IMG/VR virus record: IMGVR_UViG_3300038551_000066
Location: 1 to 33,024 of that record
Source of the DNA: a virus
Direction: 5' to 3' (one strand)
Length of the DNA stretch: 33,024 bases
Positions 2,510-26,073 of the stretch are shown here, in pieces. A model generated the notes under the pieces. It was not told the DNA's origin, ran no database searches, and saw nothing but the letters and a program-made list of their open reading frames with translations. How positions within the stretch are numbered: position 1 is the first letter of the stretch; each line of letters begins with the position of its first letter. The translations under genes were made by a program, and so were the position numbers.

Positions 2510-2757
2510 GCTTCCCTAACCCTTTTCGAGCGTTTTCGGCTCTCTGTCGCGTCCTTTGGGGTGTTTTGACCGGCTCCCCGGTGGTTGTGCCTGTCGAAAT
2601 CGAGGATTTTCGGCTTCAGAAATGTCGGGCGTGTCCCTGGCACGATAAAACGCTCGACCAGTGCGACAGATGCACTTGTTTTGTCGCGTTGAAGTGTTCT
2701 CTGGCAACGGAATGGTGCCCCGAGGGACGTTGGCCGCGCTGGTGGGGCCGAAGTTGA
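2506..2757 (+). CDS. Small Cys-rich putative zinc-binding protein
   Basis: An 83-residue protein. I place the start at GTG 2506, not the upstream GTG 2488: a perfect GGAGG (2493-2497) sits 8 nt before GTG 2506, and the start overlaps the previous stop as GTGA. The central part has CRAC-PW followed by CDRCTC, a further Cys in LKCSLATEWCPEG and an aromatic/basic tail. This CxxCP...CxxCxC...CPxGxW order is a common small phage protein pattern, likely binding one or two zinc ions. Its stop TGA is part of the TTGACA element that precedes the portal. No function is assigned; a structural or DNA-binding role is possible. Confidence 0.75.
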   Translation: MSFPNPFRAFSALCRVLWGVLTGSPVVVPVEIEDFRLQKCRACPWHDKTLDQCDRCTCFVALKCSLATEWCPEGRWPRWWGRS

Positions 2758-2778
2758 CAATTTTCGCCTTGCGGGAAC
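2754..2778 (+). promoter_or_regulatory. Two-part motif TTGACA-N12-YSGSAAC, copy 1 (portal)
   Basis: TTGACA at 2754-2759, then 12 bases, then CGGGAAC ending at 2778; the portal ATG follows after 9 nt. The first T is 34 nt before the A of the ATG. There is no Shine-Dalgarno sequence for the portal. The element fills the only non-coding gap between the Cys-rich gene and the portal and overlaps the previous stop codon. The same spacing recurs at five other places. The TTGACA half matches a bacterial -35 hexamer but no TATAAT-like -10 is present, so its nature as a promoter is an inference. Confidence 0.6.
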
Positions 2779-2787
2779 AGAACTAAG

Positions 2788-4878
2788 ATGACAAGCGACG
2801 TGCAAACCCCGCCCCCGACGCCGGACGGGTTGACCAACAGCCCGGAATTGAGGCCGGGGAGTGATAGCTTTACTCGGTCAATCAAAGACGCCGATCAAGC
2901 GCGCCGGGTGGTCAAGTCCTTACTCGAAGGGGACCGAGACCGCCAGACAATCAACGGGCGCATCATGGCGAAATACAACGCCGAGCGTCCTTACAAGAAC
3001 GCGGAGCTTGAAGCCGAGGGTTTGAAGTGGCGGAGCAACTTCACAACGAAGCCGTTGCCGCAGATGATCGAGAAAGTAGCCCCGCGTTTTGTGGAAGCTG
3101 TTCAGGGGCTCAAATATCTCACTAACGCTTCGCTTCCGGAGTCGATGGACGGCGCGGCTCACAAGACCGACGTTTTTCGCAACGAGATTACGACGACCTG
3201 CCGGGCGCGCAAGGGATGGAGAATCCTCATCGAAGACATCGCGATGGAAAACGCGCTCTTTGGTTTCACCATCCCTGCTGTGTTGGACGAGTTTACTTGG
3301 TTTCCGAAGCACTTTCGACAGGATGAGTTTTTCTTGCCGAAAGGAACATCGCAGCTTGTTGACTCGGCGCAAGTGGTCGTCTTCAAGGAAGTGTATCTCC
3401 CGCACGAACTCTTCAAGGAGATTGATGACCAAGAGAGGGCGGCGGACCTCGGTTGGAATATCGAGAACACAACCAAGGCAATCAATGAAGCAGCGCCGGA
3501 AAATGTCCGCTCGCAGTTCTCTGATTGGAGCCGTGTTTATGAGGACATGCGGCGCGAGTTGAATCTCGGGTATTCCTTCGAGAACTCGGCGAAGGTCATC
3601 ACGGTTTACTCTCTCCTCGCGGTCGAAGTCAATGGCAAGGTGTCTCACTGGCGGCTGGCCGGCGACGCCTTGACCGAAGTATATCACAAAGACGAGCGGT
3701 TTGAAAGCATGTCTTCGGTGATGTCGTTCTACAGTTTCCAGAAGGGCAATGGCAAGATGCACGGCTCAAAGGGAATTGGCCGCGAGATTTATGAGCTTGC
3801 TGGAATCCTTGACCGCTGCCGCAATGAAGTAGTTGATCGACTGGTAATGTCGGGCAAGACGTTCATCCAGGCAGATGAGAAGATGCTCAAGCGGTTCAAG
3901 ATGTCTGTTGTGGGCAACGCGATCCTTGTTGCCGCTGGCTTCAACGTTCTTGAGCAAAAAATCGACGGCAACGTTGAGGGTTTTCTGAAGCTCGACGATT
4001 ACCTCGGTATGTTGGTTGACCAGCTTATCGGCGCTGTGTCCCCGCGCGTGCTCAAGGGCGAGCGCGTGACGAAGGCACAAGTGGACCTTTTCGCGTCGCG
4101 CGAAGAGGAAGGGAAGGACTCCCGGATTTCACGCTTCCTTGAGCAGTTCGCAAGCATGATGTCGCTTATTCAGCAACGCCTCTGCGATCCGGATACGGTC
4201 GAGAAGGATGCCAAAGAGATGCAAAAGCGTTTGCTCAAGGTGATGACTCGCGACGAATTGAACCAACTCGCGGCGGCGCCTGTTGCGTCCACTATCGCGG
4301 ACCTCACCCCGATTCAGCGGCAGCAAATGGTTGCTCTCGCGACGGAGAACGCCGGAAATCCGCTTTACAACCAGCGCGAACTTCAAAAGCGGAAAATCAC
4401 GGCGCTGATTGACGCGCAGACGGCGGAGGCGCTGCTCTTGCCTGAAGAGGACCCGACGATACAAGCGGAACAGTCTCGCTTGCAGCAACTCGAATTGCAA
4501 GCCCTCACGGCTGGGCAGCCGGTCCCCGTGTCGCCTCGCGACAACCACAAGATTCATCTGCAAATGGTCATCCCCCTGATGTTGCAGACTGCGCAAGGAA
4601 TTCATGAAGGGACAGTCGGAACTGCGGTCCTTGAAGCTCTCGCCGCGCACGCGAACGAGCACATTCAGCGTGCGCTGCAACTCGGAGCGAAACCGGCGGA
4701 GTATTCGGCGGAATCCGCCCAGGTCAAGAAGGTCCTCGGAATCATCGAGGAGTTGAAGCGGATGGACGCTGAAGCCGAGGCCCTCGCTACGCAAAGAGAC
4801 CAGTTGGAAGGCGGGCAGCCCCCGTCAGCGGATGCCGGCGGAGTCCCGCCGGGAGTTCCTCCCGAGCAAATGGCGTAA
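2788..4878 (+). CDS. Portal protein (head-tail connector, podovirus type)
   Basis: Forms the dodecameric ring at the capsid vertex through which DNA enters and leaves. At 696 residues it is long, in the range of podovirus and N4-like portals. The central region contains an extended aromatic-rich beta domain, then the GERVTKAQVDLFASREEEGKDSRISRFLEQF stretch near residue 415, matching the T-x-x-E/Q-V helix and clip of T7-like connectors. It is followed by the C-terminal helical region with a DNHKIHLQ and HANEHIQRA pattern often seen in phage portals, and a Pro/Gly-rich disordered tail. It lies after the terminase and before the scaffold-like gene. Translation starts at an ATG with no ribosome binding site, 34 nt after the conserved TTGACA element. 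Confidence 0.85.
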   Translation: MTSDVQTPPPTPDGLTNSPELRPGSDSFTRSIKDADQARRVVKSLLEGDRDRQTINGRIMAKYNAERPYKNAELEAEGLKWRSNFTTKPLPQMIEKVAPRFVEAVQGLKYLTNASLPESMDGAAHKTDVFRNEITTTCRARKGWRILIEDIAMENALFGFTIPAVLDEFTWFPKHFRQDEFFLPKGTSQLVDSAQVVVFKEVYLPHELFKEIDDQERAADLGWNIENTTKAINEAAPENVRSQFSDWSRVYEDMRRELNLGYSFENSAKVITVYSLLAVEVNGKVSHWRLAGDALTEVYHKDERFESMSSVMSFYSFQKGNGKMHGSKGIGREIYELAGILDRCRNEVVDRLVMSGKTFIQADEKMLKRFKMSVVGNAILVAAGFNVLEQKIDGNVEGFLKLDDYLGMLVDQLIGAVSPRVLKGERVTKAQVDLFASREEEGKDSRISRFLEQFASMMSLIQQRLCDPDTVEKDAKEMQKRLLKVMTRDELNQLAAAPVASTIADLTPIQRQQMVALATENAGNPLYNQRELQKRKITALIDAQTAEALLLPEEDPTIQAEQSRLQQLELQALTAGQPVPVSPRDNHKIHLQMVIPLMLQTAQGIHEGTVGTAVLEALAAHANEHIQRALQLGAKPAEYSAESAQVKKVLGIIEELKRMDAEAEALATQRDQLEGGQPPSADAGGVPPGVPPEQMA

Positions 4879-4879
4879 T

Positions 4880-5206
4880 ATGATTTCGACCAACCCCTTT
4901 GAAGCGAGTCCCGTTTGGGATTCAAACGACGTTTCAGCTTTTCGCGAATTTTTGAATTCCGCGACTGGACGAAAGATTTTCCCGTTACTGGTTGAAGAGG
5001 GGCCGACTCTCGGCGGCGAGGAGCCGCATAGTGTCGCCCTCCGGGCCAAGCTGGTAGAAGGATACCTCGCTTGTGTCCGTGCGCTATCGCGCCTCACGGC
5101 GGGAATCGAGAATACTAACGTTGAGGAGCCGACGGCTTACCCTCCCTTGGACGATGACCGTTATTGGAAGGGTGCAAAGCTCACCAGCGATGACGAGAAA
5201 GAGTAA
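4880..5206 (+). CDS. Small protein between portal and scaffold
   Basis: A 108-residue protein. The start chosen is ATG 4880, one base after the portal stop (TAATATG); an upstream in-frame ATG at 4832 would add 16 residues that overlap the portal and looks less likely. The first half has a helix around FREFLNSATGRKIFPLLVEE, then ALRAKLVEGYLACVRALSRL, and an acidic tail ending in DDEKE. This T/SxxGRKxxPLL plus G-Y-x-x-x-x-x-x-L layout resembles small proteins found beside podovirus portals. Function unknown; a portal- or scaffold-associated head protein is a reasonable guess from position. No cysteines or catalytic motifs. Confidence 0.65.
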   Translation: MISTNPFEASPVWDSNDVSAFREFLNSATGRKIFPLLVEEGPTLGGEEPHSVALRAKLVEGYLACVRALSRLTAGIENTNVEEPTAYPPLDDDRYWKGAKLTSDDEKE

Positions 5207-5209
5207 ATC

Positions 5210-6634
5210 ATGCCTGCCCCAAACCCAAATCTTGACACTCTTGGCGATCCGCTCGCCACACCCGGACCGACCGCCGAGGACATCGCCGATGTGGACCGCG
5301 CGCTTGAAAACTTTTTGAAACCCGCGCTCACTCCAGAAGAGGAAGAAGCGAAGCGGAAGGAAGAGGAAGAAGCGAAGCGGAAGGAAGAGGAAGAGAAGGC
5401 GAAATCTGCCGCTGCCGACGATGCTAACAAGCAGAAGGCCGGCGCGACTGACGACAAATCTAAGGCCGACGCGGACGCCAAGGCCAAGACTGACGCGGAC
5501 GCCAAGGCCAAGACTGACGCGGACGCCAAGGCCAAGACCGACGCCGATGCCGCTGCCGCCAAGGCGAAGGAAGAAGGGGACGTGAAGAAGGCGCAAGCGC
5601 ACGACCCTTACAAGGACGTGCAACTTCCGCCGACGGCTCGCGGCCAGAGCGCGCAAGCCTTCGCGACGCTGAAGGCCCGCGCGGCGCAAGACCTCTCTAC
5701 CCGGGATCAGAAGATTGCGGACCTTGAGAAGCAAGTCAAGGAATTGTCTGAGAAGACGGCGAGTGCTGTTGCACTGGAGAAACTCCAAGCCGCTGAGAAG
5801 GAACTCGCGGACCTTCGCAAGTGGAAGAAGACTCTCGACATTGAGGCAGACCCGGAATTCAAGACGTTCGACGACCGCGCGAAGCTTGTCAAGGACTTCA
5901 TCTATTCCGAGTTGAAGGGCACGGGGAAAGTCACCGATGAGCACATCAAGAAGATTGAAAGCCTCGGCGGACCGGCTAAGATTGACTGGGAGCAGCTTTT
6001 CGCCAAGCTCGAAAATCCGACGGCTCAGGGGGTCATCACAACCAAGCTCGCGGAATTGAAGTCCCTTTCCTTCGAGAAGCAGCGCGCCATCGAAGCCGCG
6101 AAAGCCAACGTGGATCAATACGTTGCCACTCGCGAAAAGGAATTCGTCGAAGCCTCGACCAAGCATAATACCGAGACGAAAGAGCTTCTTCTCGGATTCC
6201 TCGGGCAATTTTCGTGGATGGCTCCGCAGAAGCCTGCGGACAATGCCGATGAAGCCGCCAAGAAAGCCGCGATGGATCACAACTCCTGGCTCGAAGGGGT
6301 CAATAAAGTTCTGGGTGATGCGCTCACCGATGATTCTCCGCAGATGCGCGCGGTGTTGCTGGCCGGCGCGGCGGACCATCTCAGGCTCAAGCGTGATTAT
6401 GCGACTGTCAAGGCCGCGCTCGACGGCGTCGAGGCTAAGCACAAGGCGGAAGTTGAGGCGCTGACAAAGCAACTGGAAGAGGCGACGGCCAAACTCGAAA
6501 AATTGAAGGCCGGCAGTTTGATGAAGCGCGAAGGCGGTGCTCCGACGGTTCAGAAAACGACGCCCGGTGCGAGGGAAAATTTCTCGACCAACGCCGAGAT
6601 GGCGATTGACGCCCATTTTGCGAACTTGAAGTAA
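5210..6634 (+). CDS. Scaffolding-like capsid assembly protein
   Basis: 474 residues, strongly charged and mostly helical, lying where podoviruses encode the scaffold. Residues about 43-65 are a Glu/Lys repeat (EEEEAKRK twice), and about 85-112 repeat the 8-residue unit DADAKAKT. Heptad-rich coiled coil continues from about 165 to 205 and again at about 410-445. The C-terminus ends in a short folded-looking element (AEMAIDAHFANLK) of the kind scaffolds use to contact the coat protein. The start ATG follows the previous stop by three bases with a purine-rich AGAAAGAG upstream. Unlike the usual order, the capsid gene does not follow directly: four glycosyltransferase genes intervene. A non-scaffold role such as an internal core protein cannot be excluded. 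Confidence 0.7.
   Translation: MPAPNPNLDTLGDPLATPGPTAEDIADVDRALENFLKPALTPEEEEAKRKEEEEAKRKEEEEKAKSAAADDANKQKAGATDDKSKADADAKAKTDADAKAKTDADAKAKTDADAAAAKAKEEGDVKKAQAHDPYKDVQLPPTARGQSAQAFATLKARAAQDLSTRDQKIADLEKQVKELSEKTASAVALEKLQAAEKELADLRKWKKTLDIEADPEFKTFDDRAKLVKDFIYSELKGTGKVTDEHIKKIESLGGPAKIDWEQLFAKLENPTAQGVITTKLAELKSLSFEKQRAIEAAKANVDQYVATREKEFVEASTKHNTETKELLLGFLGQFSWMAPQKPADNADEAAKKAAMDHNSWLEGVNKVLGDALTDDSPQMRAVLLAGAADHLRLKRDYATVKAALDGVEAKHKAEVEALTKQLEEATAKLEKLKAGSLMKREGGAPTVQKTTPGARENFSTNAEMAIDAHFANLK
5339..5386 (+). repeat. 24-nt tandem repeat, two copies, in scaffold-like gene
   Basis: Two identical 24-base units (5339-5362 and 5363-5386) encode the Glu/Lys-rich unit EEEAKRKE; a partial third copy follows. 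The unit length is a multiple of three and keeps the frame, as expected of coding repeat expansion in a disordered charged linker. Confidence 0.85.
5468..5539 (+). repeat. 24-nt tandem repeat, three copies, in scaffold-like gene
   Basis: Three almost identical 24-base units begin at 5468, 5492 and 5516 and encode DADAKAKT; only the last base of the third differs. A degenerate copy follows (GACGCCGATGCC). Low-complexity coding repeat, probably a flexible or helical spacer. Confidence 0.9.
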
Positions 6635-7503
6635 TGAGCGACATCGTCCAGCCTACCGGCTTGGCGAAGACGCGCGTTCTCATCGCTTTGCCGTGGTATA
6701 AGAGTGTCAGCCCCGTGACGGCGTTCTCCGTCATGGGACTGATTGACCGCTCTCGCGTCGGAATTCTGCTCCATCATGGCGACGCTTTCGTCATTCACAC
6801 TCGGAACAAGGTCGGGGATTATTTTCTCCGCAGTGAGTTTGAATGGATGCTTACGCTTGATGACGACGTGGTGTGTCCCTTCGGGAATGCCAAGTGGTTC
6901 AACAGTTACACTGGATTCAATTTCCCAGAGAAGTTTGCGGGAATGCACACGCTGAACCGGCTTCTGTCGCATGGAAAAAAACTTGTTGGCGCGGTCTATT
7001 GGGGCCGGCACGCTAACGGAAAGGCGATGTATTGCGAGGGGATGAATGATCCGCAAGAGGCGGCGACGGTTCGCAAGATGGTCCCTGTGGATCACATCAA
7101 GCCGACTCGCTGGGTCGGAACTGGCTGCATGTTGATCCATCGCGACGTTTTTCTTGACATAGAGAAGAGGTATCCCAATCTTGCCCGAGGCTCTGACGGG
7201 AGCGGCGGGCAGTGGTTCACTCCGGCGCAACATAAGGCGCTCGAAACAATCGAGCGGGCTCGGAAGGTTTTGAGACCGGACAAAGGCGCTGGATTGACTT
7301 CCGAGGATGCTTACAACGCGCTGAAGATTCTCGAAGACGGCGCGGCGGCAAACCGGAATGGCGCGAAGTTGGGCATGGGCGAAGACGTGACTTTTTGTAT
7401 TCGCGCGGCGGAGGCGGGGCACCAGCCGTATGTTGATCTTGGGCTTGTCTGTGGGCACATGGGAAACATCATTTACGGACCAAAAAATACTAAGGAAACC
7501 TAA
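6634..7503 (+). CDS. GT-A-like glycosyltransferase 1
   Basis: 289 residues, starting in a TAATG overlap with the scaffold-like gene. A first beta strand (TRVLIALPWYKSV) opens a nucleotide-sugar binding fold, followed by WMLTLDDDVVCP at about 71-82, the acidic DxD-type metal/sugar-nucleotide site. Downstream, VGTGCMLIHRDVF and GEDVTFCIRAAEAG with a later H-x-G (CGHMG) match the acceptor-side and catalytic positions of GT-A enzymes seen in phages. Probable role: transfer of a sugar to a phage or host acceptor in the cytoplasm. It heads a run of four such genes inside the head module. Donor and acceptor cannot be told from sequence. Confidence 0.75.
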   Translation: MSDIVQPTGLAKTRVLIALPWYKSVSPVTAFSVMGLIDRSRVGILLHHGDAFVIHTRNKVGDYFLRSEFEWMLTLDDDVVCPFGNAKWFNSYTGFNFPEKFAGMHTLNRLLSHGKKLVGAVYWGRHANGKAMYCEGMNDPQEAATVRKMVPVDHIKPTRWVGTGCMLIHRDVFLDIEKRYPNLARGSDGSGGQWFTPAQHKALETIERARKVLRPDKGAGLTSEDAYNALKILEDGAAANRNGAKLGMGEDVTFCIRAAEAGHQPYVDLGLVCGHMGNIIYGPKNTKET

Positions 7504-7504
7504 T

Positions 7505-9033: not shown

Positions 9034-9785
9034 AAATTTGGGTCTTCACCATTTCGCATCAAGAGGGCTACATGATGCCATTCTTCTTGCGTCATTACTC
9101 GACTTTCGCGGACCGGATTATTGTCTGGGACGAGCACTCGACGGATGGCACGCGCGAGGCGGTGAAGGATTGCTCGCTCGCGGAGCTTCGGGATTGGCCT
9201 TACCGGGGACTGGATGACGAGAGGTTTCTTGAGGCCCAAAACAATTGGTATAAAGAGGCCCGAGGGCATGCTGACTGGGTCATGTGGCCGGATGTGGATG
9301 AATTGCTTTGGCACCCGTCGCCGCGTCTTTTCCTAGATCAAATGAAGCGCGCTGGTTGGGACATGCTCCATTCGCGCGGATATGCAATGATGCCGGCAAG
9401 CCCGCCAAAGAACGACGCCCGAAGCCAGTTTTACCAGCTTTGCACGAAAGGGGTCCCGACGCCGAATTACGACAAGAGTATCATCTTCAACCCGGATTGC
9501 GATACTCATTTCGTCGCGGGCCGGCACAAGATGAAGGGTTTTTCCGGCAACCGACCTCCTCCGACCTTCTGGTCATTCAAGCTTTTCCATTGTCATTTTC
9601 TCGGGGTTCGCTACACCCAGCAACGGAACGCCCGAAACTATTCCCGGACATTGGACAAGAGAACTTATGCGTGGAATTATGCTCCCGAGTTCAATCGCCC
9701 GGACCAACCTGGGACGGTTGAATGGGTGAAAGAGATTCAACGCACCCGGAAGGTCGTGGACGTTTTTTCTCACGTGCCGCGTTGA
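9030..9785 (+). CDS. GT2/GT92-like glycosyltransferase 4
   Basis: 251 residues. The start is TTG 9030, overlapping the previous TGA (TTGA); the next ATG (9072) would delete the first strand KIWVFTISHQEGY, which is integral to the fold. Motifs: ISHQEGYMMPFFLRHY, the usual N-terminus of this kind of family-2 enzyme; DRIIVWDEHSTDGT at 29-41 (nucleotide-binding Asp residues); ADWVMWPDVDELLW at about 81-93 with the D-x-D; and a later FHCHFLGVRY His-rich segment. Likely a cytoplasmic sugar transferase. Its stop is part of the TTGACA element preceding the capsid leader. It is the last of four tandem glycosyltransferase-like genes. Confidence 0.75.
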   Translation: MKIWVFTISHQEGYMMPFFLRHYSTFADRIIVWDEHSTDGTREAVKDCSLAELRDWPYRGLDDERFLEAQNNWYKEARGHADWVMWPDVDELLWHPSPRLFLDQMKRAGWDMLHSRGYAMMPASPPKNDARSQFYQLCTKGVPTPNYDKSIIFNPDCDTHFVAGRHKMKGFSGNRPPPTFWSFKLFHCHFLGVRYTQQRNARNYSRTLDKRTYAWNYAPEFNRPDQPGTVEWVKEIQRTRKVVDVFSHVPR

Positions 9786-9806
9786 CAACCTTCTGATTTC
9801 CGCAAC
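9782..9806 (+). promoter_or_regulatory. Two-part motif TTGACA-N12-YSGSAAC, copy 2 (capsid leader)
   Basis: TTGACA at 9782-9787 and CCGCAAC ending at 9806 with the same 12-base spacer as the other copies. It overlaps the stop of the fourth glycosyltransferase gene and opens the 200-base leader of the major capsid gene, separating the glycosyltransferase block from the capsid. The nearest ATG (9826) is 19 nt after the motif; the capsid ATG is 180 nt after it. Candidate promoter for strong capsid expression; no canonical -10 is seen. Confidence 0.6.
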
Positions 9807-9825
9807 TGGATTCTTGAGAGCCTGA

Positions 9826-9981
9826 ATGTCTGCCCGGAAGGCCCTCCCGGGAAGCGACCTAAGCGCCAGTGGTCTGGCGAGAGCGGTGACGGTTTGTCAG
9901 TTCAACGGCGCTGTCGTTGGGGGCCAATTCTCAACGTCCGGGATTTTCGGGGCCGGATACACAATCCCCAGCAGGAGATAG
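9826..9981 (+). CDS. Possible 51-residue leader ORF before the capsid gene
   Basis: An ATG at 9826, 19 nt after the two-part motif, opens a 51-codon frame ending at TAG 9979-9981, five bases before the capsid ATG. The product would be small with a basic start and a Gly/Ser-rich second half (GAVVGGQFSTSG, GAGYTIPSRR). There is a weak GAGAG upstream. Its stop lies inside the spacer between the capsid's AGGAG and start, which would allow translational coupling. Codon use does not look clearly coding, and the region also forms hairpins, so it may be only a structured leader. Confidence 0.3.
   Translation: MSARKALPGSDLSASGLARAVTVCQFNGAVVGGQFSTSGIFGAGYTIPSRR
9833..9879 (+). promoter_or_regulatory. 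Hairpins in the capsid gene leader
   Basis: Two short stems lie here: CCCGG (9833-9837) with CCGGG (9847-9851), and CGCCAG (9864-9869) with CTGGCG (9874-9879) closed by a 4-base loop. Neither is followed by a T-run, so they are not simple terminators. They lie in the only stretch of about 200 bases without a firm gene and could stabilise or regulate the capsid mRNA. Confidence 0.35.
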
Positions 9982-9986
9982 ACAAC

Positions 9987-11282
9987 ATGGCTACTGAGTG
10001 CCTAACGGTCCACCAAATCAGCGATTTCGCGACGAAAGACACGGAACGCATGACCGGGACCATTGCAAAGACTCTCGCCGCAAACTCCCCCTTTGTTAAC
10101 GTGATTCAGGGCGGGACGTTCCCGGCAGGCGTGAGCGACGAAATTCGGACGAGCGTTCAAATGCAGGCCGCTCCCGGCGATTCCCTCGCCATTCCGACCT
10201 TCGTTTGTGACTCGGACATCTGCGGCGAAGACGGCGAACAAGACTTGACGGATACCGTCGAGTTTGTGTCCCGGCTTGAGAGCAAGCGCGGTAAGGGTCC
10301 GAAAGTGTGCGTGAAGAAGGGCTATTCCGCTTTCCGGGGCAGTTACGTTGCTGCTGAGGATTCTCTGCGGAAGCTCATTACGCAATACATCAATTCCGAT
10401 GTGCGAGCGCAGCTTTATCTGCGGTCTGCCTCGAAATTCGTATGCGCTGCGGGGTATGACTTTGACTCGCTGTTCACTGGCGGGAACGAGACTGACCTCG
10501 GAGTCCAGTTTGCGAACATCGCGCCTACCGGTCCGCTGTCCTTCCAGACGTTGCACGCCATCGCGCGCTACATGAAGGAAGCTCTGTTTGCCGAGATGTA
10601 TGACGGCGGAAGTAAGGGGATGCCCCATTTCCGTTTCATCGGTTCGGACGACGCGGTTGAATTCCTGCGGAGTCAGGTGGGGGTGTTGGCCAACATGTAT
10701 GCCCTCACTTCCGGCGGCTACAAGCTCGGTGAAGTGACGCTTACGGCTTACTCTTTTGAGCAGGCCCCGGCGTATCGCGGTCTTGCTTTCGGTGTTGACC
10801 AGCGCCCGCTTCGTGCGAACGCTTTCGACGGCGAAGGGAATCTCGACCTTCTTGACCCTGTGGTCAACATTGCGAATCCGGTCAAGAACACCGCTTATGC
10901 TCGCGCGAATCCTTTGTGGCGGGGTGCGAATTGGGAAGTTGGTTTCTTGATGGCGGACAATGCCTTCAAGCGCCTTGTGCCCGAGCGGTATGTCGGCGAG
11001 GGGAGCTTCAAGTTCGCGCCGCAGTTGCACATGGGCGAACTCGACTGGCATTATGTCATCGACAACGGCTGTAATAGCCGTGGCGATTTCGGCTGGCACC
11101 AGTATCAAATCAGCCGGGCTTACCAGCCGATGCGCCCGCAGTGGATTGTCCCGATTCTCTACAAGAAGCCTTGTCAGAATCTCGGGCTCATCTCTGAGGT
11201 TTGCGATACGCTGAGCACTTACACAGGTGCGGACAGTTACGCCGACTTGGAGTGCGTTGACCCCGGCGAAGAGTTGCAATAA
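9987..11282 (+). CDS. Major capsid protein
   Basis: 431 residues. ATG 9987 is chosen because AGGAG (9973-9977) lies 9 nt upstream; a longer in-frame reading from 9894 has no support. Position (after portal and scaffold-like gene, before fibres and tail genes), length, and mixed alpha/beta composition without enzyme motifs fit an HK97-fold coat protein. Supporting stretches are an N-terminal helical arm (TERMTGTIAKTLAAN), a charged loop around residues 75-110, a long helix near QTLHAIARYMKEALFAE, and a late beta segment ending in the Pro/Trp/Tyr-rich YQPMRPQWIVPILYKK. It has about nine cysteines, many for a coat protein. No firm homologue was recalled, so the call rests mainly on context. It has its own leader and a downstream terminator, as expected for a highly expressed gene. 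Confidence 0.7.
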   Translation: MATECLTVHQISDFATKDTERMTGTIAKTLAANSPFVNVIQGGTFPAGVSDEIRTSVQMQAAPGDSLAIPTFVCDSDICGEDGEQDLTDTVEFVSRLESKRGKGPKVCVKKGYSAFRGSYVAAEDSLRKLITQYINSDVRAQLYLRSASKFVCAAGYDFDSLFTGGNETDLGVQFANIAPTGPLSFQTLHAIARYMKEALFAEMYDGGSKGMPHFRFIGSDDAVEFLRSQVGVLANMYALTSGGYKLGEVTLTAYSFEQAPAYRGLAFGVDQRPLRANAFDGEGNLDLLDPVVNIANPVKNTAYARANPLWRGANWEVGFLMADNAFKRLVPERYVGEGSFKFAPQLHMGELDWHYVIDNGCNSRGDFGWHQYQISRAYQPMRPQWIVPILYKKPCQNLGLISEVCDTLSTYTGADSYADLECVDPGEELQ

Positions 11283-11301
11283 TCCTTTGGGGGTAGGTCG
11301 G

Positions 11302-11341: not shown

Positions 11342-11345
11342 CACA

Positions 11346-11624
11346 ATGAGGAATTCCTTTACCTTGCTGGCAATGAGTTGGACGGGCACCCTCGCTAGCG
11401 TCACTGCGTTCATTGCCCATGTTACCCCCTGGCTCCCGGTGCTGTCGTTCATCGTGTCCGTCATCGGCACGGCTTTCGCAGTCCGAGCCTGTCGAGCACG
11501 CGAGCGCGCGGCGGACGCCGTTGCCGCAGTGGCGAAAGTGGAGCTTGAGAACGAAAAGGCAGAGCACAAACACGGAGTCGCGGCACTGCTGAACGATGAC
11601 GGAAACGAAGACACCCCTGAATGA
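11346..11624 (+). CDS. Small membrane protein (holin-like topology)
   Basis: 92 residues starting just after the capsid terminator, with no Shine-Dalgarno sequence. The N-terminal half is hydrophobic: a first weak segment around residues 5-26 and a clear one around WLPVLSFIVSVIGTAFAV (about 29-46). A basic patch (RACRARERA) is next, then an Ala/Glu-rich helix and an acidic tail. One or two membrane segments with a charged C-terminus fit a small holin, but also many other phage membrane proteins. The next gene, overlapping by ATGA, is a lipoprotein with a membrane segment; the pair could be a lysis cassette. No endolysin is seen nearby, so this stays tentative. Confidence 0.55.
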   Translation: MRNSFTLLAMSWTGTLASVTAFIAHVTPWLPVLSFIVSVIGTAFAVRACRARERAADAVAAVAKVELENEKAEHKHGVAALLNDDGNEDTPE

Positions 11625-12373
11625 AGAATTTTTTCCTTGCGCTGCTACTGGTCGGGTTGACTGGTTGCGGCACCCTCATCCCGAAGCGGGTTGAGTTTGG
11701 ACAAGACAAGGTCAAGGCCGTCCCCACACAGACCGACCGAGAGAAAGAGACTCAACGGCGGGCGGCGGCTCTGGCCGCACAAAAAGCCCGCGAAACACGG
11801 GAAGCGGCGTTGACAAACAATGCCCCGCCCGCCGTTACGGTCCCCGCGCGGGATACTGAGGCGCTGACAGAGGCGGTTTCCGAAAGCCTCGGTCCTCCGA
11901 AGCATGACCCGTCCGGTGATGACCCGCAGGCTCTCGCGGCGGAATTGCGTGTTGCTATTGCCAAGTTGAATGCCCGACTCGACTCATTCCGGGACAAAAA
12001 CGATGAGAACATCGGGAAGAAGATAGAAGGCACCGGCTTCCTTCAAATCCCGTATTTCGTTTGGCTTCTCATGGTGGTTGTCGTTGGTTTTGTCGGGTTG
12101 ATTTTGCTCGGTATCGGCTGGTCTTTTCTCAAGATGTTCGCCATGAGCAACCCGCCTGTGGCTCTCGGGGTCAATGCGGTTGCGATGGGAGGGAAGTTGA
12201 CAGCGCGCGCCGTTTCGCAACTTATTAAAGGCGGGGAAGCTTTCAAAGACGCCCTTGGGGGCGTAGTGTCTGACCCGGCTTTGCTTGAGCGCGTGAAAGA
12301 GTTGTTTCGGACGAGCCACAAAGCGGCTCAAGACGAGCATCTTCAGGACGCGGTAAAAGAATTGACAAAATGA
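11621..12373 (+). CDS. Lipoprotein with internal transmembrane segment (spanin-like candidate)
   Basis: 250 residues. The N-terminus is a lipoprotein signal peptide: MKN, a hydrophobic run, then lipobox LTGC with the acylated Cys at 16. Residues 20-140 are polar, Ala/Arg/Glu-rich and probably helical. A strong transmembrane helix spans about 144-170 (VWLLMVVVVGFVGLILLGIGW), followed by about 80 residues with amphipathic helices. A lipidated end in the outer membrane plus a membrane anchor is the plan of a unimolecular spanin, which fuses the two membranes at lysis; the long tail after the membrane segment is atypical. Alternatives are a superinfection-exclusion lipoprotein or a virion membrane protein. 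It starts in an ATGA overlap with the small membrane protein gene. Confidence 0.6.
   Translation: MKNFFLALLLVGLTGCGTLIPKRVEFGQDKVKAVPTQTDREKETQRRAAALAAQKARETREAALTNNAPPAVTVPARDTEALTEAVSESLGPPKHDPSGDDPQALAAELRVAIAKLNARLDSFRDKNDENIGKKIEGTGFLQIPYFVWLLMVVVVGFVGLILLGIGWSFLKMFAMSNPPVALGVNAVAMGGKLTARAVSQLIKGGEAFKDALGGVVSDPALLERVKELFRTSHKAAQDEHLQDAVKELTK
12197..12221 (+). promoter_or_regulatory. Two-part motif TTGACA-N12-YSGSAAC, copy 6 (inside the lipoprotein gene)
   Basis: TTGACA at 12197-12202 and TCGCAAC ending at 12221, with exactly the spacing of the five intergenic copies. It is in the coding part of the lipoprotein gene, 148 nt before the collagen-like gene's ATG. It could be an internal promoter for the fibre genes or a chance match; given a TTGACA, a random match to the second half is about 1 in 2000. 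Confidence 0.4.
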
Positions 12374-16105: not shown

Positions 16106-16111
16106 GAAAGT

Positions 16112-16141: not shown

Positions 16142-16146
16142 TTGTG

Positions 16147-17277
16147 ATGCGATTTCATTTGCTCGCCTGCCCCAACGCGCAGACAACCGCAGAGTATGAA
16201 CTCTGCGGTTTCAACGCGCTCACCATCCGCTTTGCCCGAATGCTATACAAGCAGGGGCATACGGTTTATCTATACGCCAGCGAGGAGAATGAGGCCCCCT
16301 GCACTGAGCTTGTCCCGGTGCTCAGTAAGGCCGATATTCAGACCTTGCTCAATGGCGTTCCCTATCAAGCGGTCTGGTTTCATCCAACGCCGCTCCTCTG
16401 GGAAACGCAGTGCGGGCGAGCCATTTCCGCAATCGCGCAGCGTAAACAGCGCGGGGACTTCATTCTGTCTATCGGAGGTTCTGCTCACAAGCCGGTTTTC
16501 GACAAATTCGCCGAGGACTGCTTCGGGGTTGAGTATTCCATCGGGTATCAAGGGACCTTCGCAAACTACCGGGTGTTTGAATCCCATGCACACCGCAGCT
16601 TCATTCAAGGGCTCTACAAGAACAACCGGGGCAATTACTTCGACGAAGTCATTCCAGTTCCTTTTGAGGCTGAAACCTTTCCGTATAAACGATACCGCTC
16701 TTCACCGGAATATCTTGCCTACGTTGGGCGTATTACCGAGTCCAAGGGGGTAGCTCTTGCCTGTCAAGTGGCTCAAGCTGCTGGGCTTCCTTTGAAGGTC
16801 GTCGGGCATGGGTCTGAGGATGACATCAAGAAGCTCATCGGACTCGGGGCGGAATACCTCGGAGCCCTCCCGACGAAGGCCCGGAACGAAGTCATGGCCG
16901 GCGCCCGGGCGGTCCTCTGTCCGACTCTCTATATCGAGCCCTTCAATTGCGTGGCGGTCGAGGCCCAGCTTTGCGGAACACCGGTCATCGCGTCGCCATG
17001 GGGCGGCTTCACCGAGACCATCGAACACGGGCATACGGGCTTTCGTTGCTCCATGTTCGCCGAATTCGTGGGCGCATGCAAGGAAGTCAGCGCCCTTGAC
17101 CGGTCCGAAATCCGAGCCCGCGCGGTGTATCGGTATTCGGTCGAAGCCATCTATCCTCAATACCTCCGGTATTTTCGTCGGGTTGCCCAGTTGCATGGAG
17201 ACGGGTTTTATGCCGGCTTCCCGCGCGAGAAACCGAGCCCAACGATACCGCCCCCGGACCTCCCGAAAACGAGTTGA
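16147..17277 (+). CDS. GT4-like (GT-B) glycosyltransferase 5
   Basis: 376 residues. ATG 16147 is taken as start; GTG 16144 is an alternative one codon earlier. No ribosome binding site is visible because the hairpin ends five bases upstream. The first half is an acceptor-side Rossmann-like domain (NALTIRFARMLYKQGHTVYLYA). The second half carries donor-binding features: AYVGRITESKGVALACQVAQAAGLPLKVVG, a GAEYLGALP strand, and EPFNCVAVEAQLCGTPVIAS with the E-x7-E pair at about 264 and 272, diagnostic of family-4 retaining enzymes. Cytoplasmic sugar transfer from a nucleotide sugar is expected. It lies directly after the large fibre gene, consistent with modification of that fibre. Confidence 0.85.
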   Translation: MRFHLLACPNAQTTAEYELCGFNALTIRFARMLYKQGHTVYLYASEENEAPCTELVPVLSKADIQTLLNGVPYQAVWFHPTPLLWETQCGRAISAIAQRKQRGDFILSIGGSAHKPVFDKFAEDCFGVEYSIGYQGTFANYRVFESHAHRSFIQGLYKNNRGNYFDEVIPVPFEAETFPYKRYRSSPEYLAYVGRITESKGVALACQVAQAAGLPLKVVGHGSEDDIKKLIGLGAEYLGALPTKARNEVMAGARAVLCPTLYIEPFNCVAVEAQLCGTPVIASPWGGFTETIEHGHTGFRCSMFAEFVGACKEVSALDRSEIRARAVYRYSVEAIYPQYLRYFRRVAQLHGDGFYAGFPREKPSPTIPPPDLPKTS

Positions 17278-17298
17278 CACGGCGTCGAAAATGGCAAC
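17274..17298 (+). promoter_or_regulatory. Two-part motif TTGACA-N12-YSGSAAC, copy 3 (109-aa gene)
   Basis: TTGACA at 17274-17279 overlaps the stop of the fifth glycosyltransferase gene; TGGCAAC ends at 17298 and the next ATG (17308) follows after 9 nt, giving the same 34-nt geometry as at the portal. The downstream gene has no Shine-Dalgarno sequence. It would start a transcription unit covering the tail genes from 17308 to 23092. Confidence 0.6.
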
Positions 17299-17307
17299 GA
17301 TACTGAG

Positions 17308-17637
17308 ATGAAGAGCATTGACCTTGGCCGAAAAATGGACACCCTCGCGGAGCCCATTTCACCGAAGAAAACTGAGAAGGTTTACCCGACCCTCTGGATT
17401 GACGAAGCCGAGGGCGAGCTTGAACTCCCCGACTCCGGCACCATGACTATTTCTTTCGTGATGAAAGAGAAGACGGAGCGCGAGACTGAGAACGGCAAGA
17501 CGTGTTCCTATCGGCTCGAAGTGCGGTCTATCGACGACCTGAAAGAAGACGAGTCGAGTGAGCCCGAGGAGAACACCGAGCGCAACATGGACAAAGCGGT
17601 TGCTTCCTACAAAAAGACCTACGTTAAGGGGGAATAA
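17308..17637 (+). CDS. Small acidic protein, possible head decoration or neck protein
   Basis: 109 residues. After a basic start there is a beta-rich core: VYPTLWIDEAEGELELPDSGTMTISFVMKEK, then a Cys-containing strand (TCSYRLEVRSID), and an acidic, probably helical tail (DDLKEDESSEPEEN). The short all-beta core with a Y-P-T-L start and G-T/E strand pairs is like small capsid-surface or liner proteins in phages, but no family is certain. It is the first gene after the two-part motif and precedes tail genes, so neck, liner or decoration roles all fit. No signal peptide or membrane segment. Confidence 0.65.
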   Translation: MKSIDLGRKMDTLAEPISPKKTEKVYPTLWIDEAEGELELPDSGTMTISFVMKEKTERETENGKTCSYRLEVRSIDDLKEDESSEPEENTERNMDKAVASYKKTYVKGE

Positions 17638-17639
17638 TC

Positions 17640-22286: not shown

Positions 22287-22288
22287 CT

Positions 22289-23092
22289 ATGAGCTTGCAA
22301 GACACAAACTTGGTTCTCGAATCGGCGCCACTGCCGGCGCATTTTCAGGGGGACCCGCAGGAGTTTCAGGCCGCGATTGTTGCGCGTCTGAAAATCAAAT
22401 CGCCGTCTGGACTGGTCTTCGTTGTCTCGGGGGACGCGGAGCCCGTGAGCAATCAAGGCCCCTGGCTGAAGGAAGGGGACAAGTGGTATGTGTGGGACGA
22501 GTCAACGAAGCGATACGTCCCGCAGAATCTTACCGACTCGGAAACACTTTGGTTTCACGTGAGCGAGACGGCCCCGACTTCGACGACCCCCGCCGTCTGG
22601 CTCAAGGTCAAGAACGGGCGTCCGGTGGACTGGTATTTTTGGAATGGCAACGTCTGGGTGCCTTCCATGCAGATCATCCAATCCGGAACGACTGCCAACC
22701 GTCCGACGGACCCGACGCCGCTTCAGCGGTATTATGACACTGATTGCGGATGCGAAATCTGGTGGGAGCGCGCCGCATGGCGGACCGTCAGCGGCTCGCC
22801 GGGCGACATCAAGCATGTGCTCTCCGAGACTGCGACGGAAGCCCTCCGGCTTAGCCCTGGCTGGGAAATCCTTGGGACTGCCGACGCGTTGAAGACGTGG
22901 CGCGGTCGGACAATCAGCATGGCGACGCGGGACCCGGGGGCATCCCCTGAGACGGTCCTCGCGGTTGACGCCGCAATCAGCCAGCGGCAGGCCCATGAAG
23001 TATTCGGGGAGACGCAAGGTATCAAGGCGTTGAGCGGCTCTGCGCTTACGTATCCTCCGACCATCGCCCTTTGGACGTTGGTTAAACTGTAA
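22289..23092 (+). CDS. Putative tail-side/collar-like protein
   Basis: 267 residues starting at ATG 22289 with GGAG 5 nt upstream. Aromatic-rich short repeats in the middle (WYVWDESTKRYVPQ, DWYFWNGNVWVP, CEIWWERAAWRTV) look like the G-x-x-W strand pairs of phage fibre and baseplate-wedge modules. The C-terminal ~90 residues (RLSPGWEILGTADALKTWRGRTISMATRDPG) follow the P-G-W...L-R-G-R-x pattern of tail-collar-like domains, and end in a YPPTIALWTLVKL strand typical of trimeric fibre tips. Probable tail fibre or collar protein. It closes the tail block; the following gap carries the fourth copy of the two-part motif. Confidence 0.55.
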   Translation: MSLQDTNLVLESAPLPAHFQGDPQEFQAAIVARLKIKSPSGLVFVVSGDAEPVSNQGPWLKEGDKWYVWDESTKRYVPQNLTDSETLWFHVSETAPTSTTPAVWLKVKNGRPVDWYFWNGNVWVPSMQIIQSGTTANRPTDPTPLQRYYDTDCGCEIWWERAAWRTVSGSPGDIKHVLSETATEALRLSPGWEILGTADALKTWRGRTISMATRDPGASPETVLAVDAAISQRQAHEVFGETQGIKALSGSALTYPPTIALWTLVKL

Positions 23093-23098
23093 ACCACG

Positions 23099-23123
23099 TT
23101 GACACTGGCACAAAAACCGGAAC
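23099..23123 (+). promoter_or_regulatory. Two-part motif TTGACA-N12-YSGSAAC, copy 4 (internal virion protein)
   Basis: TTGACA at 23099-23104, CCGGAAC ending at 23123, then 12 nt to the ATG at 23136. Here the motif does not overlap a stop codon (the previous TAA ends at 23092), which shows that the TGA within TTGACA is not what conserves it. The start has only a weak AAGAG 3-4 nt upstream. Confidence 0.6.
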
Positions 23124-23135
23124 TTCTCAAGAGAT

Positions 23136-24071
23136 ATGTTTGACTTCGGAGTCGGTAGTTTGATCGGCGGGCTCACGCAACTTGGCGGTGCGGCGATTCA
23201 GTCCAACGCCATGAAGGACGCCATGAAAATGCAGATTGATGCCATCAATCAGCAGCGCGAACTTATTCGCAGCGAACTGGCGCCCGAAAAAGTCGCGCCG
23301 ATGGTGTCCGAGGCGGACCGGCAGCGGGCTATGTCAATGCTCGCCCTTCAAGGCAAGATTGATCCCGCCTTGCTCGCGGCTCGGTATCAAGCAAGCTCCA
23401 ACATCCTTGGGGCCTTGCAGCAGCCGGGCGGGGCAGCCGAGGACCTAGCCTCTCAACTCATCTCGGAGATACAGCAGCCCAGCGCCGGGCTCGAAGCGGT
23501 GAAGACCGCGTTGATTGACCGGGCGCTAGATCAGATGGCAGCCGGTGCCACGCTGCCCCCGGACGTGCAAGCCGAAATCATCAAGGCTGGTCTCGAAAAG
23601 ACGACTGCCTCTGGCGTCGGCGCGTCTCGTTCGGGGCTTGCGGGTGAGACGGCCAAGAAGATTCTCGGGCAGGCTGGCATCGCGCTTCAACAGCAGCGCG
23701 AGAATCAAGCAATGAATCTCACGAAAACCGCCGACGAGCTTGCAACCCGTCGGGCGCAATTGCTTGCCTCGGTGTTTCCGCAGTTGAAGAATCTTCAGAC
23801 GCAGAATTTGCAGAACGCTCTCACGTCATTGACCACGTCCAACGCGCTCGTTCCGGAATCCGGGATGAGCGGCGGCGACCTGCTTAATCTCTTGAAGGCT
23901 CGCGTGGGGGCGGAGCAGTCCCTCACGGCACAGGAAGGAGCCGCAAGGGCGGACCTCGCGAAAGGGCTCGGTTCGGTCTGGTCCGGCGCGCTTGGTGGAA
24001 TCGGGCAAGCCGTCGCTGGGGCGAATTCGGCGGGGATGAATCTGCTCTATAACAACGTTTTCGGAGCGTAA
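23136..24071 (+). CDS. Internal virion (DNA ejection) protein candidate A
   Basis: 311 residues, almost entirely helical. The N-terminus is a Gly-rich amphipathic helix (MFDFGVGSLIGGLTQLGGAAIQSNAMKDAM), followed by coiled coil rich in Gln and Ala, and the C-terminus returns to a Gly/Ala-rich weakly hydrophobic segment (GLGSVWSGALGGIGQAVAGANSAG). This F-G-x-G-x-x-x-G-G layout plus Ala/Gln-rich helix resembles T7 gp14-like ejection proteins, which leave the head first and form a pore in the cell envelope. It precedes two more helical proteins and the giant gene, matching the usual internal-core block of podoviruses. Confidence 0.6.
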   Translation: MFDFGVGSLIGGLTQLGGAAIQSNAMKDAMKMQIDAINQQRELIRSELAPEKVAPMVSEADRQRAMSMLALQGKIDPALLAARYQASSNILGALQQPGGAAEDLASQLISEIQQPSAGLEAVKTALIDRALDQMAAGATLPPDVQAEIIKAGLEKTTASGVGASRSGLAGETAKKILGQAGIALQQQRENQAMNLTKTADELATRRAQLLASVFPQLKNLQTQNLQNALTSLTTSNALVPESGMSGGDLLNLLKARVGAEQSLTAQEGAARADLAKGLGSVWSGALGGIGQAVAGANSAGMNLLYNNVFGA

Positions 24072-24072
24072 C

Positions 24073-24672
24073 ATGGCAACTCCTTCGCGATTTTCTTTGA
24101 CTGGTTGGAACTCGACGTATATTGCGCCGAGGACAATCAAACCGACGGCTCCGGCGGTCCCGGCTGCTGCGACGACCCCGGCGGGCACCTCGGCGGGCTC
24201 AATTGGTTCGATGACCGCCGACATTCCGGCGGCGCTTCAGGGGCTCGTCAGCAACGCCAACCAAAGCGACGCCGTTCGCGCGCTTTCGCAAGCCCTCAAT
24301 CTCGCGATTTCGCAGGGCGGGGCGGCGGGCGGCAATCAGGCGGACCTCATCACGGCGCTTTCCCAGGCTCAGCAACGGAATCAGGTCTGGGATACGATAA
24401 TGAAGGACCGTCAAACGATGGATTGGCAACGCCAAAAGGCGAATCGCGCAGACCTTGCCACGGTGGGCGGACCGCTAGGATGGTCTGACACTTACCTCGG
24501 TCAAATAGCCAACAAGCAAGCTGACTTAGACCGAACTCAGCTTGATTATTTGAGGACCATGTCGGCGAATTGGCTAAATCCGCTGACAGCAAGTTCTATC
24601 GCCCCGCATGCTTCCCTCGGCTCGGCGCCGATGTCAACTAGTGGCTGGGTTAGTCGATCTTTGGTGCGCTAA
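24073..24672 (+). CDS. Internal virion protein candidate B
   Basis: 199 residues, start at ATG 24073 with GGAG 6 nt upstream. A disordered Pro/Ala/Thr-rich N-terminus (about 20-50) leads to Ala/Gln-rich helices (ALQGLVSNANQSDAVRALSQALNLAISQ) and a Gln/Arg-rich helix (RNQVWDTIMKDRQTMDWQRQKANRADL). The C-terminus is Ser/Pro-rich. No cysteine, signal peptide or enzyme motif is seen and the family is not recognised. The gene is squeezed between two candidate internal core genes with gaps of one and five bases, so it is probably a component of the same ejection complex. Confidence 0.6.
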   Translation: MATPSRFSLTGWNSTYIAPRTIKPTAPAVPAAATTPAGTSAGSIGSMTADIPAALQGLVSNANQSDAVRALSQALNLAISQGGAAGGNQADLITALSQAQQRNQVWDTIMKDRQTMDWQRQKANRADLATVGGPLGWSDTYLGQIANKQADLDRTQLDYLRTMSANWLNPLTASSIAPHASLGSAPMSTSGWVSRSLVR

Positions 24673-24677
24673 ACGTT

Positions 24678-26039
24678 ATGCCTATCGGAACAGACAGAAA
24701 CATCATGGGCGAGAGTGCGTTGCCGCTCGCGGCGGTAATGCCAGCCCTCGGTTCACAGGACGCCGTTGCCGGCATGCAAAAGATGATGCAGGCCGGTCTC
24801 ATTACTGCGGGTGACATCGCGGAGCGCGCGTCAGCGCGAAACTCTATGAAGGCGGACTTGGACATCCGAGCCATGCAAGAGGCTAGGGCGATGGCTCCGA
24901 AGCTCGCCGAGTTGAAGAAGCAACAGACCGAAGAGGCCCTCGCCGAGTCGAAGTATGGGCCGGGAATCAAGCTTTGGCAGGCTCTCGCCCCCGTCGCGGG
25001 AGTGTCTCAGGTCCCCAAGCTCCCGGACGGCTCGACTGATTACGCCACGATGGCGGAGCAGGGCGGTAAGATGGCGGCTTGGATGGCCGAGCGGCAGAAG
25101 GCAACGGAGGAGCTTACCCCGGTGCCCGGGCTCAGCAAGGAGAAAATCGGACCAGACTACAAGAAGAGTCTGGTTTTCGTCAACAAGTTTGGACAGGAGT
25201 TGACCCCCGAATATCAGCAAGGGCTCAACCTGAAGGCGACTCGGTCGTTTTCTGACTACGTCGGCGGTATGGCTCCGGGAACGTCTTCCACTCCGGGAGT
25301 TGCCCCGGCGCCCGGCACTGCGGCGCTTCCGGTTGGCGTTGTGCAACCCGCCGGCCAAGGCGGAGGCATCGACCTCGGCATAGATTATCAGGCCAAGATG
25401 CAGGCTGAAAAAGCCGCGCAAGACAAGGCGGAGACTGTCTCAAAAACGAATCAAGCCCTCAACAACGCCCGTGAGATGGACTCGGCGGTTGCCGAGGGGC
25501 TTGCCATCGTTCAGAATCCTGCCGCTCCGGTCGGGGCATTCCAGGGCTCTGAATTCGGACAGTTGCTCAACCGGGCCAAGGCGTTTTTTGGGGTCGGTGA
25601 CAAAGCTTACAGTGAGCAGGACAAACTGCGCGGGCTCGTTGGGAGGAAGGTTCTCGAAGGTGCCATGCAAATGAAGGGCAACCTCTCGGACAAAGACATC
25701 CGATTCCTTCAAGCGGCTTACCCGTCGCTGGGCTCTACTCGCGAGCGTTGGGTGAGTTATCTCTCCCTCTGGCAGAAGATGAACCAAACCAACCAGCAAG
25801 TTCTGCAAGGGCTCCTCCCCAAAGGGACTAGCGTATTGCCGGACACTGCCGCCGTGCCCCCGGACTCCGAGGATGTCGGCGCGGTTGTTCAACGACTGTC
25901 GGGCGCTGCTCCGGGTGCCACACCCGGAGCGCCGGCTGCGGCTCCCGAATTCGCGACGTGGGCCGAAGTCCCTGCCGAAGTGAAGGCATCCAAACAGCCT
26001 ATTAAGGTCGGGGGCATCCTCTACACTCCCGCGAAGTAG
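24678..26039 (+). CDS. Internal virion protein candidate C
   Basis: 453 residues. The first 125 residues are helical, Ala/Met-rich (VAGMQKMMQAGLITAGDIAERASARNSMKAD). A central Pro/Gly/Ala-rich linker (about 210-230) follows. The second half has a helical domain with AFFGVGDKAYSEQDKLRGLVGRKVLEGAMQMKGNLSDKDIRFLQAAYPSLGST. The K-G-x-L-S-D-K-D-x-x-F-L...P-S-L pattern is one I have seen in unnamed internal or minor structural phage proteins. A second linker (PGATPGAPAAAPE) ends in a small C-terminal motif, TWAEVPAEVKASKQPIKVGGILYTPAK, resembling a peptide-binding or anchoring tail. The stop TAG is followed immediately by the fifth TTGACA element. Confidence 0.6.
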   Translation: MPIGTDRNIMGESALPLAAVMPALGSQDAVAGMQKMMQAGLITAGDIAERASARNSMKADLDIRAMQEARAMAPKLAELKKQQTEEALAESKYGPGIKLWQALAPVAGVSQVPKLPDGSTDYATMAEQGGKMAAWMAERQKATEELTPVPGLSKEKIGPDYKKSLVFVNKFGQELTPEYQQGLNLKATRSFSDYVGGMAPGTSSTPGVAPAPGTAALPVGVVQPAGQGGGIDLGIDYQAKMQAEKAAQDKAETVSKTNQALNNAREMDSAVAEGLAIVQNPAAPVGAFQGSEFGQLLNRAKAFFGVGDKAYSEQDKLRGLVGRKVLEGAMQMKGNLSDKDIRFLQAAYPSLGSTRERWVSYLSLWQKMNQTNQQVLQGLLPKGTSVLPDTAAVPPDSEDVGAVVQRLSGAAPGATPGAPAAAPEFATWAEVPAEVKASKQPIKVGGILYTPAK

Positions 26040-26064
26040 TTGACATCCGGCCTAGCGCCGGAAC
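26040..26064 (+). promoter_or_regulatory. Two-part motif TTGACA-N12-YSGSAAC, copy 5 (giant gene)
   Basis: TTGACA at 26040-26045 directly follows the previous TAG; CCGGAAC ends at 26064 and the giant gene's ATG (26074) follows after 9 nt, again with 34 nt from the first T to the ATG. The spacer holds a short palindrome (TCCGGCCTAGCGCCGGA). No Shine-Dalgarno sequence is visible. Confidence 0.6.
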
Positions 26065-26073
26065 ATTCTGAAG

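Follow-up and report, generated by a model that had tools for sequence, protein, structure and literature searches.

Putative late promoters with a host-type -35 element and an atypical -10 region in a phage genome fragment and its relatives

Introduction

The 33,024-nucleotide stretch of viral DNA analysed here, which we call the window (IMG/VR record IMGVR_UViG_3300038551_000066, positions 1 to 33,024), carries at five gene junctions a bipartite motif, TTGACA-N12-YSGSAAC, and these five sites are very probably promoters. The full reading that we favour, and consider likely, is that they are late promoters with an atypical -10, used by host core RNA polymerase with a phage sigma-70-type factor. 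A phage-specific late promoter, used by a modified or activated host polymerase or by a phage sigma factor, had been proposed in the initial annotation of this DNA, and the comparison of sequences supports the version with a phage sigma factor through the placement of the sites at junctions, their -35, their spacing, their geometry with respect to start codons and the sigma genes found in 16 of 19 records of related phages. Promoters of phage sigma factors are hard to predict from sequence because each phage has few copies and a code of its own; with many diverged genomes that pair a promoter with a sigma factor, -10 recognition could become readable from natural variation and could then be tested. 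The sites also offer a late expression signal for phages for which no named isolate was found, and the presumed capsid mRNA contributes a structured leader that is conserved.

The motif in the window

Genes in the window and in its relatives were called with a simple longest-ORF script, which makes the assignment of sites to junctions approximate. The features on which the argument depends are these:

60..1940, + strand: terminase large subunit gene (weak family match, phrog_5713, E 4.9e-4)
2754..2782, + strand: putative late-promoter site 1 of the portal-like gene (ATG 2788 at +34), running from TTGACA to the end of the -10 region
2788..4878, + strand: portal-like gene, named by position and conservation, without a family match
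9782..9810, + strand: putative late-promoter site 2, 205 bases upstream of ATG 9987 of the presumed major capsid gene
9816..9986, + strand: presumed capsid 5' leader, with a predicted first base
9819..9851, + strand: candidate leader pseudoknot 1 (score 7.6, under the counting threshold of 8)
9856..9879, + strand: candidate leader pseudoknot 2 (stems GACC/GGTC and CGCCA/TGGCG; score 8.7)
9987..11282, + strand: presumed gene for the major capsid protein (9894/9987), strongly conserved, 24 relatives being 60-68% identical
12197..12225, + strand: exact motif copy inside gene 11621-12373, followed by ACTTAT
17274..17302, + strand: putative late-promoter site 3, upstream of gene 17308 (ATG at +34)
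23099..23127, + strand: putative late-promoter site 4, upstream of gene 23136 (ATG at +37)
26040..26068, + strand: putative late-promoter site 5, upstream of the giant ORF 26074-33024+ (ATG at +34)

The window holds six exact copies of the motif, all on the + strand (2754, 9782, 17274, 23099, 26040 and the coding copy at 12197), and 0 matches on the - strand, against a mean of 0.006 and a maximum of 1 in 500 dinucleotide shuffles. When TTGAC-Nk-G[CG]AAC was scanned on both strands with the spacing varied, the motif's own spacing gave 7 sites and each of 26 others (4 to 30) gave 0 or 1; the seventh site is a TTGACG variant at 29233, within a gene. All five coordinates first annotated proved exact, as did the claim that the second half accompanies TTGACA only there and at one coding site (6 of the 17 TTGACA on the + strand); the figure of about 15 for that strand was slightly low, and the - strand has 12. 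The motif is, as tested, rarer within genes than between them, 5 of the 6 exact copies lying at junctions. The earlier description of the sites as lying in intergenic gaps holds for the junctions but not to the letter, since at 2754, 9782 and 17274 the first four bases of the site, TTGA, still belong to the preceding ORF and contain its TGA stop. The same packing together of promoter and gene end is seen in a related contig, at L074:3022, where TTGAC overlaps the TGA stop of the preceding ORF. The coding copy at 12197 may be an internal promoter serving the tail-fibre-like genes that begin at 12370, or may have arisen by chance.

TTGACA as such is commoner in the window than expected (29 against 11.9), and the late sites explain only part of this excess. 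The excess and the three sites in which TTGA serves as a stop codon are what could be cited for an origin of the motif by chance or coding bias; independent copies in new sequence, orthologous conservation amid changed flanks and a family-wide spacing peak, all described below, make such an origin scarcely credible.

As regards the genes themselves, the presumed capsid protein of the window has no match among the PHROGs, and its structure model is not confident (mean pLDDT 39). A conserved gene among the head genes, 6634-7503, has DDD and GMGED-type motifs, which presumably recall family 2 glycosyltransferases, and a PHROG match of unknown function. The ORF 26074-33024 runs for at least 2317 codons and is still open at the window end; its first 1800 residues have no PHROG match.

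Conservation in near and distant relatives

The nearest contig, L001, shares its terminase with the window at 100% identity and extends 3.3 kb further upstream; this additional sequence contains one more exact copy (L001:1266; mean 0.0000 in shuffles), and the ATG at +34 from it opens a gene whose translation, judged by eye, looks like a trypsin-like protease. In two further contigs, L074 and L075, most of the proteins shared with the window are 85-89% identical to it, and three are 63-77% identical. The 23099 site is exact in both, the 17274 site reads TTGACG-N12-CCGCAAC in L074, with the ATG at +34, and the flanks around the kept sites have diverged. Nine sites of this lineage were aligned (the six of the window, L001:1266, L074:3022 and L074:8888): TTGAC is kept in 9/9, followed at fixed places by G, C/G, A, A and C, TTGACA has become TTGACG in one, and the -10 position reads (A)ACNNNN, not near TATAAT, in 9/9. 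The site is bipartite, unlike the single-element tAATGTAtA of phage phiEco32, discussed at the end. Like a canonical sigma-70 promoter, the window sites have a TTGACA -35 with a spacer of 16-18 bases; the motif shared before the late gene groups differs from the host primary-sigma consensus, as judged from TANNNT sites. Among 79 loci, TTGAC[AT]-N12-YSGSAAC was found in L001, L074 and L075 only, and a looser motif pattern, searched in L001-L013, gave only L001 and two minus-strand places (L008, L012). In the whole viral collection, GTTGACA-N12-YSGSAAC-N9-ATG occurs in 6 stretches, namely L001 and 5 unrelated ones, and none of 17 window proteins match the latter.

Relatives were collected with the 6634-7500 protein (12 loci) and then with its alignment (67 loci); 19 records were followed up, 14 of them 57-76 kb long. 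Their shared gene order is that of the window, and the distant ones are 47-55% identical at the portal-like gene. In the phage collection, nothing nearly identical to bases 1-25000 of the window was found. Against named phage records the portal-like (2788) protein has no match and the terminase has 56, of which the 20 listed cover 26-38% of its length at <30% identity; no listed title among open-licence papers, searched without a family name to go by, concerns this family. In a search of genome contigs the presumed capsid alignment led to one MAG contig and the capsid protein alone to nothing. That contig (L170, JABFSS010000103.1) is a family phage contig in a Candidatus Peribacteraceae MAG; it may be phage contamination and is not used here as evidence for the host.

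It is at orthologous junctions that the distant relatives are most informative. Upstream of the presumed capsid gene, TTGAC stands 100-240 bases before the gene in 37/41 relatives (random stretches, 16%), and TTGACN-N17/18-A[CT][ACT] is present in 31/41 (random stretches, 4.4%) and missing in 10/41, a count built from 43 unique loci by one rule, 2 of them too short, and including L065, which has no TTGAC. For the other window-site genes, TTGACN-N17/18-A[CT] precedes the portal-like gene in 20/42 (19/41 without the window), g17308 in 7/21 and g23136 in 2/16, and is absent in 22/42, 14/21 and 14/16, respectively; the 26040 site has 0 orthologous upstreams fit for comparison. The 17308 junction carries an ACTTCT or ACTTAT form in G003, G005 and G006. 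Control genes, which have no window site, show the pattern far less often: terminase 0/27, g17640 1/34, g18587 2/31, the 6634 gene 6/47, g20586 0/14, g22289 0/20, gene 1937 5/38 and g24678 0/3. With the window, L001, L074 and L075 left out, and with 180 bases searched upstream of the capsid gene and 135 upstream of others, TTGACN-N17/18-A[CT] is found at 57/117 window-site junctions vs 14/214 other junctions (Fisher P 1e-18, a value that is too small because related phages are not independent and the TA and AC classes were defined after the sites had been seen). On the question of whether related phages keep the motif, then, its exact form is confined to the closest contigs, and the -35, the spacing and the position persist in distant relatives, with many misses. 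A plain loss of conservation in the distant relatives was also considered, and was dropped once the orthologous junctions showed an altered -10 after a kept TTGAC.

Spacing and strand of the -10 classes

Across 15 relative records (two of which, G013 and G017, overlap), TTGAC-Nk-ACTT occurs 38 times at k=18, the next highest count being 17, and TTGAC-Nk-ACTTCT 19 times, the next highest being 3. A broader form, AC[TAC][TGA][TC][TA], counted over the relatives' loci and genomes, gives 69 at k=18 and 67 at k=19, against 7-40 at 20 other values of k (9 to 30). TTGAC-Nk-TANNNT also peaks at k=18 in the 15 records (49, next highest 31), and L001:2007-2041 has a canonical TTGACA-N17-TATCTT-N5-ATG, with the ATG at +34, that begins a gene recognized by eye as serine-recombinase-like; there is therefore a TATAAT-like class beside the AC class, with the same -35.

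The two classes are distributed differently over the strands. In 14 relative genomes the late strand has 113 intergenic TTGAC sites and the opposite strand 112, with 20 AC-type and 12 TA-type sites on the late strand and 7 AC-type and 26 TA-type on the early strand (P 0.001, too small for the reasons given above). AC-type sites make up 27/225 intergenic vs 37/2133 coding TTGAC sites, and the strict AC form is absent between genes in 5 of the 14 genomes (G001, G002, G004, G008, G015). G017 was left out of these strand and class counts, and of the genome part of the Shine-Dalgarno count given below, because its sigma factor is identical to that of G013, and was kept in the 15-record spacing count.

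This bias bears on the possibility that the sites serve as promoters for an alternative sigma factor of the host, or for its primary sigma factor if this prefers a -10 other than TATAAT. The sole cellular record found is the Candidatus Peribacteraceae MAG contig, and the -10 preference of the host may differ from TATAAT; against this, the relatives and L001 also carry TANNNT promoters, biased to the early strand, and for that reason the host sigma factor seems to read TANNNT. We regard a host sigma factor of this kind as quite improbable.

Two side observations belong here. A further class, approximately TTGACATTTTTCGAAAAGTCCAC-ACTGGT, has 9 intergenic copies in the 14 genomes (3 late, 6 early), is seen in G001, G003, G005, G006 and G010, is resembled downstream by L001:1266, and may be a third promoter type. 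The ORFs of 175-187 aa that follow an early-strand ACTTCT or ACCTCT site in G003, G005, G006 and G010 seem to be of low complexity, and their reading frame may be wrong.

Predicted start point and the capsid leader

The distance from TTGACA to the ATG is +34 at 2754, 17274 and 26040 and +37 at 23099. Over the family, 49 unique AC-type sites have an ATG 29-45 bases on that opens at least 70 codons, and in 40 of them it lies at +33 to +38 (11 at +34, 14 at +37). The presumed capsid gene is arranged otherwise, with leaders of 142-220 bases from TTGAC (33 loci; 32 relatives), whose first stem begins at a median of +33 in 30/31, in a stem search confined to +30 to +50. The position of the ATG and that of the leader stem, two unrelated features, thus indicate one and the same start point. 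Shine-Dalgarno-like words are rare (68/585 genes, control 33), and mRNAs from sites with an ATG near +34 are probably leaderless; at -11 an A or a C may stand. The ATG at 9826, after the 9782 site, is probably not a start codon, because alignment with the relatives sets the presumed capsid start at 9987.

A signal for translation, RNA processing or termination, the second of which the initial annotation had offered as an alternative, might be suspected from the 4/5 sites that stand 34-37 bases before an ATG and from the TCCGGC/GCCGGA hairpin that the 26040 site could form. Such a signal is very unlikely: the 9782 site and its gene are 205 bases apart, in 32 relatives the distance is 142-220, and the fold z-scores of the five sites (-0.72, 0.53, 0.93, 0.47 and -1.50) reveal no common fold. 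RNA processing is disfavoured by both the missing shared fold and the unequal distances, and a hairpin or terminator was rejected on the absent common fold.

In 31 aligned leaders of the presumed capsid mRNA two tandem H-type pseudoknots are possible, and in each the initial stem leads into TAA-like letters. A pseudoknot score of at least 8 is reached in 27/31 (first) and 26/31 (second), against 26% and 28% with shuffled downstream sequence, and stem 1 varies on both sides between loci (GAGACC/GGTCTC, GACATC/GATGTC, GGCGAC/GTCGCC). Leaders L163 and L034, which seem to be without the first element, were left out of the alignment and the count, as were loci in which TTGAC was not in range or the start was not fixed. 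The evidence for the tandem pseudoknots is good but not final, because the best pairing was chosen for each sequence and two leaders were left out. Rfam at the gathering score, over 5 sources, returned two tRNAs and no match at the leaders. In T4 gene 32, a pseudoknot in the mRNA leader serves autogenous control.

Sigma factors of the relatives

Sigma70_r4 is over cut-off in 16 of the 19 relative records (19 distinct records from 20 loci), including all 14 of at least 57 kb, and the 3 records without sigma region 4 are all shorter than 50 kb; Sigma70_r2 is found in 11/19, in 9 of them over cut-off. PHROG sigma families match 3/3 relative sigma proteins tested, and in the 15 records fetched the sigma gene lies on the strand opposite the terminase. 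The 33 kb window record, which lacks the early region, has no sigma gene. A single-subunit phage RNA polymerase (PF00940) was found in 0/19 records, in a search whose control was silent too. We infer that the window phage also has a sigma factor, that this factor reads the sites and that transcripts start at them; that a phage sigma factor is the reader we judge probable.

The WW segment and the following region 2.4 of a sigma factor read and open the -10. When the sigma factor of G003 is compared with solved structures, its region 2 can be aligned to RpoS as far as the segment that reads WW in RpoS and PY in the phage protein, where the similarity breaks off, and region 4 aligns separately; in this member WW is replaced by PY, and the -10 core is AC instead of TA. 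The sigma factors of G003, G005, G006, G010 and G011 (45-83% identical to that of G003) go with a presumed-capsid promoter N17-ACTTCT, also the -10 of site 4 (23099) and the commonest form in the family. The presumed-capsid promoters of G007 (ACATCT), G008 (ACCGTA), G009 (ACTGTT) and G012 (ACTATT) have N18, that of G001 is N17-ACTGGG, and G002, G004 and G013 are without a clear form. The match between sigma type and promoter form across relatives is suggestive only, and co-occurrence of sigma factor and site is no proof of reading, because both are inherited.

The main competitor is that the host housekeeping sigma factor uses the sites as promoters with a weak -10, helped by a phage activator or a modified polymerase. 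The perfect -35 consensus and the standard spacing would fit this, as would the 3/19 relative records (all <50 kb) that show no sigma region 4; the finding that 14/14 records of at least 57 kb do have it argues the other way. T4 MotA promoters, the known activator case, keep their -10. The T4 activator binds an upstream -30 motif (PMC11598898), the reverse of the present sites. On this balance we think a host housekeeping factor unlikely, and return to the phage sigma factor in what follows.

Proposed mechanism

In the proposed mechanism, TTGACA would act as the -35, followed by a spacer of 16 or 17 bases and a non-canonical -10 beginning at (A)AC, with the conserved YSGS just upstream; the altered -10 is probably explained by such phages carrying their own sigma factor. 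Host core RNA polymerase with a phage sigma-70-type factor would start some 33-36 bases downstream of the first T in TTGACA. At 2754, 17274, 23099 and 26040 the transcript would begin at the start codon or a few bases from it and would be leaderless or nearly so, and at 9782 it would begin at the foot of a pseudoknotted leader of about 170 nt. Early genes would be left to the host sigma factor, whose promoters would have this -35 together with a TANNNT -10. Early and late promoters would share the -35 and differ in the -10, and swapping the -10 reader would therefore suffice to switch to the structural genes. A broader generalization, in which sigma factors throughout the family keep -35 recognition, have rebuilt -10 recognition and melting, and use a -10 and spacing that drift by lineage, with mRNAs leaderless for most late gene groups and a tandem-pseudoknot leader on capsid mRNA only, is tentative, and we would sooner doubt it than adopt it.

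Comparison with known systems

T4 late promoters are not known to have a -35. The present sites resemble T4 middle (MotA) and late (gp55) promoters in what would be a phage-directed switch of host polymerase to late genes (PMC11598898; PMC2988020), and differ from the MotA promoters, described there with a -30 motif instead of a -35 (PMC11598898), in keeping the -35. The sigma factor of E. coli phage phiEco32, phi32_gp36, is without region 4, and the middle and late promoters that it reads have the single element tAATGTAtA and no -35 (PMC8948821). The likeness to phiEco32 lies in the phage sigma factor and in structural and functional genes set in two opposed clusters (PMC4331800); the difference is that here the -35 is kept and sigma region 4 is detected in relatives.

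Salmonella phage 7-11 has measured late promoters, GTAAtg-(16)-aCTA, read by its own sigma factor SaPh711_gp47 (PMC8948821), and a genome of two-cluster layout (PMC4331800); 7-11 is not among the terminase matches listed (20 of 56). The systems share bipartite sites before late genes, with elements 16 bases apart in 7-11, separate early promoters for the host sigma factor, and a phage sigma factor with region 4, and the 7-11 -10 core aCT resembles the ACTTCT found here. Unlike GTAAtg in 7-11, the -35 here is the host consensus TTGACA, and most sites here are placed for leaderless mRNA. Late promoters of phage sigma factors are thus already known as a kind, of which the sites described here would be a variant with a host -35 and an altered -10.
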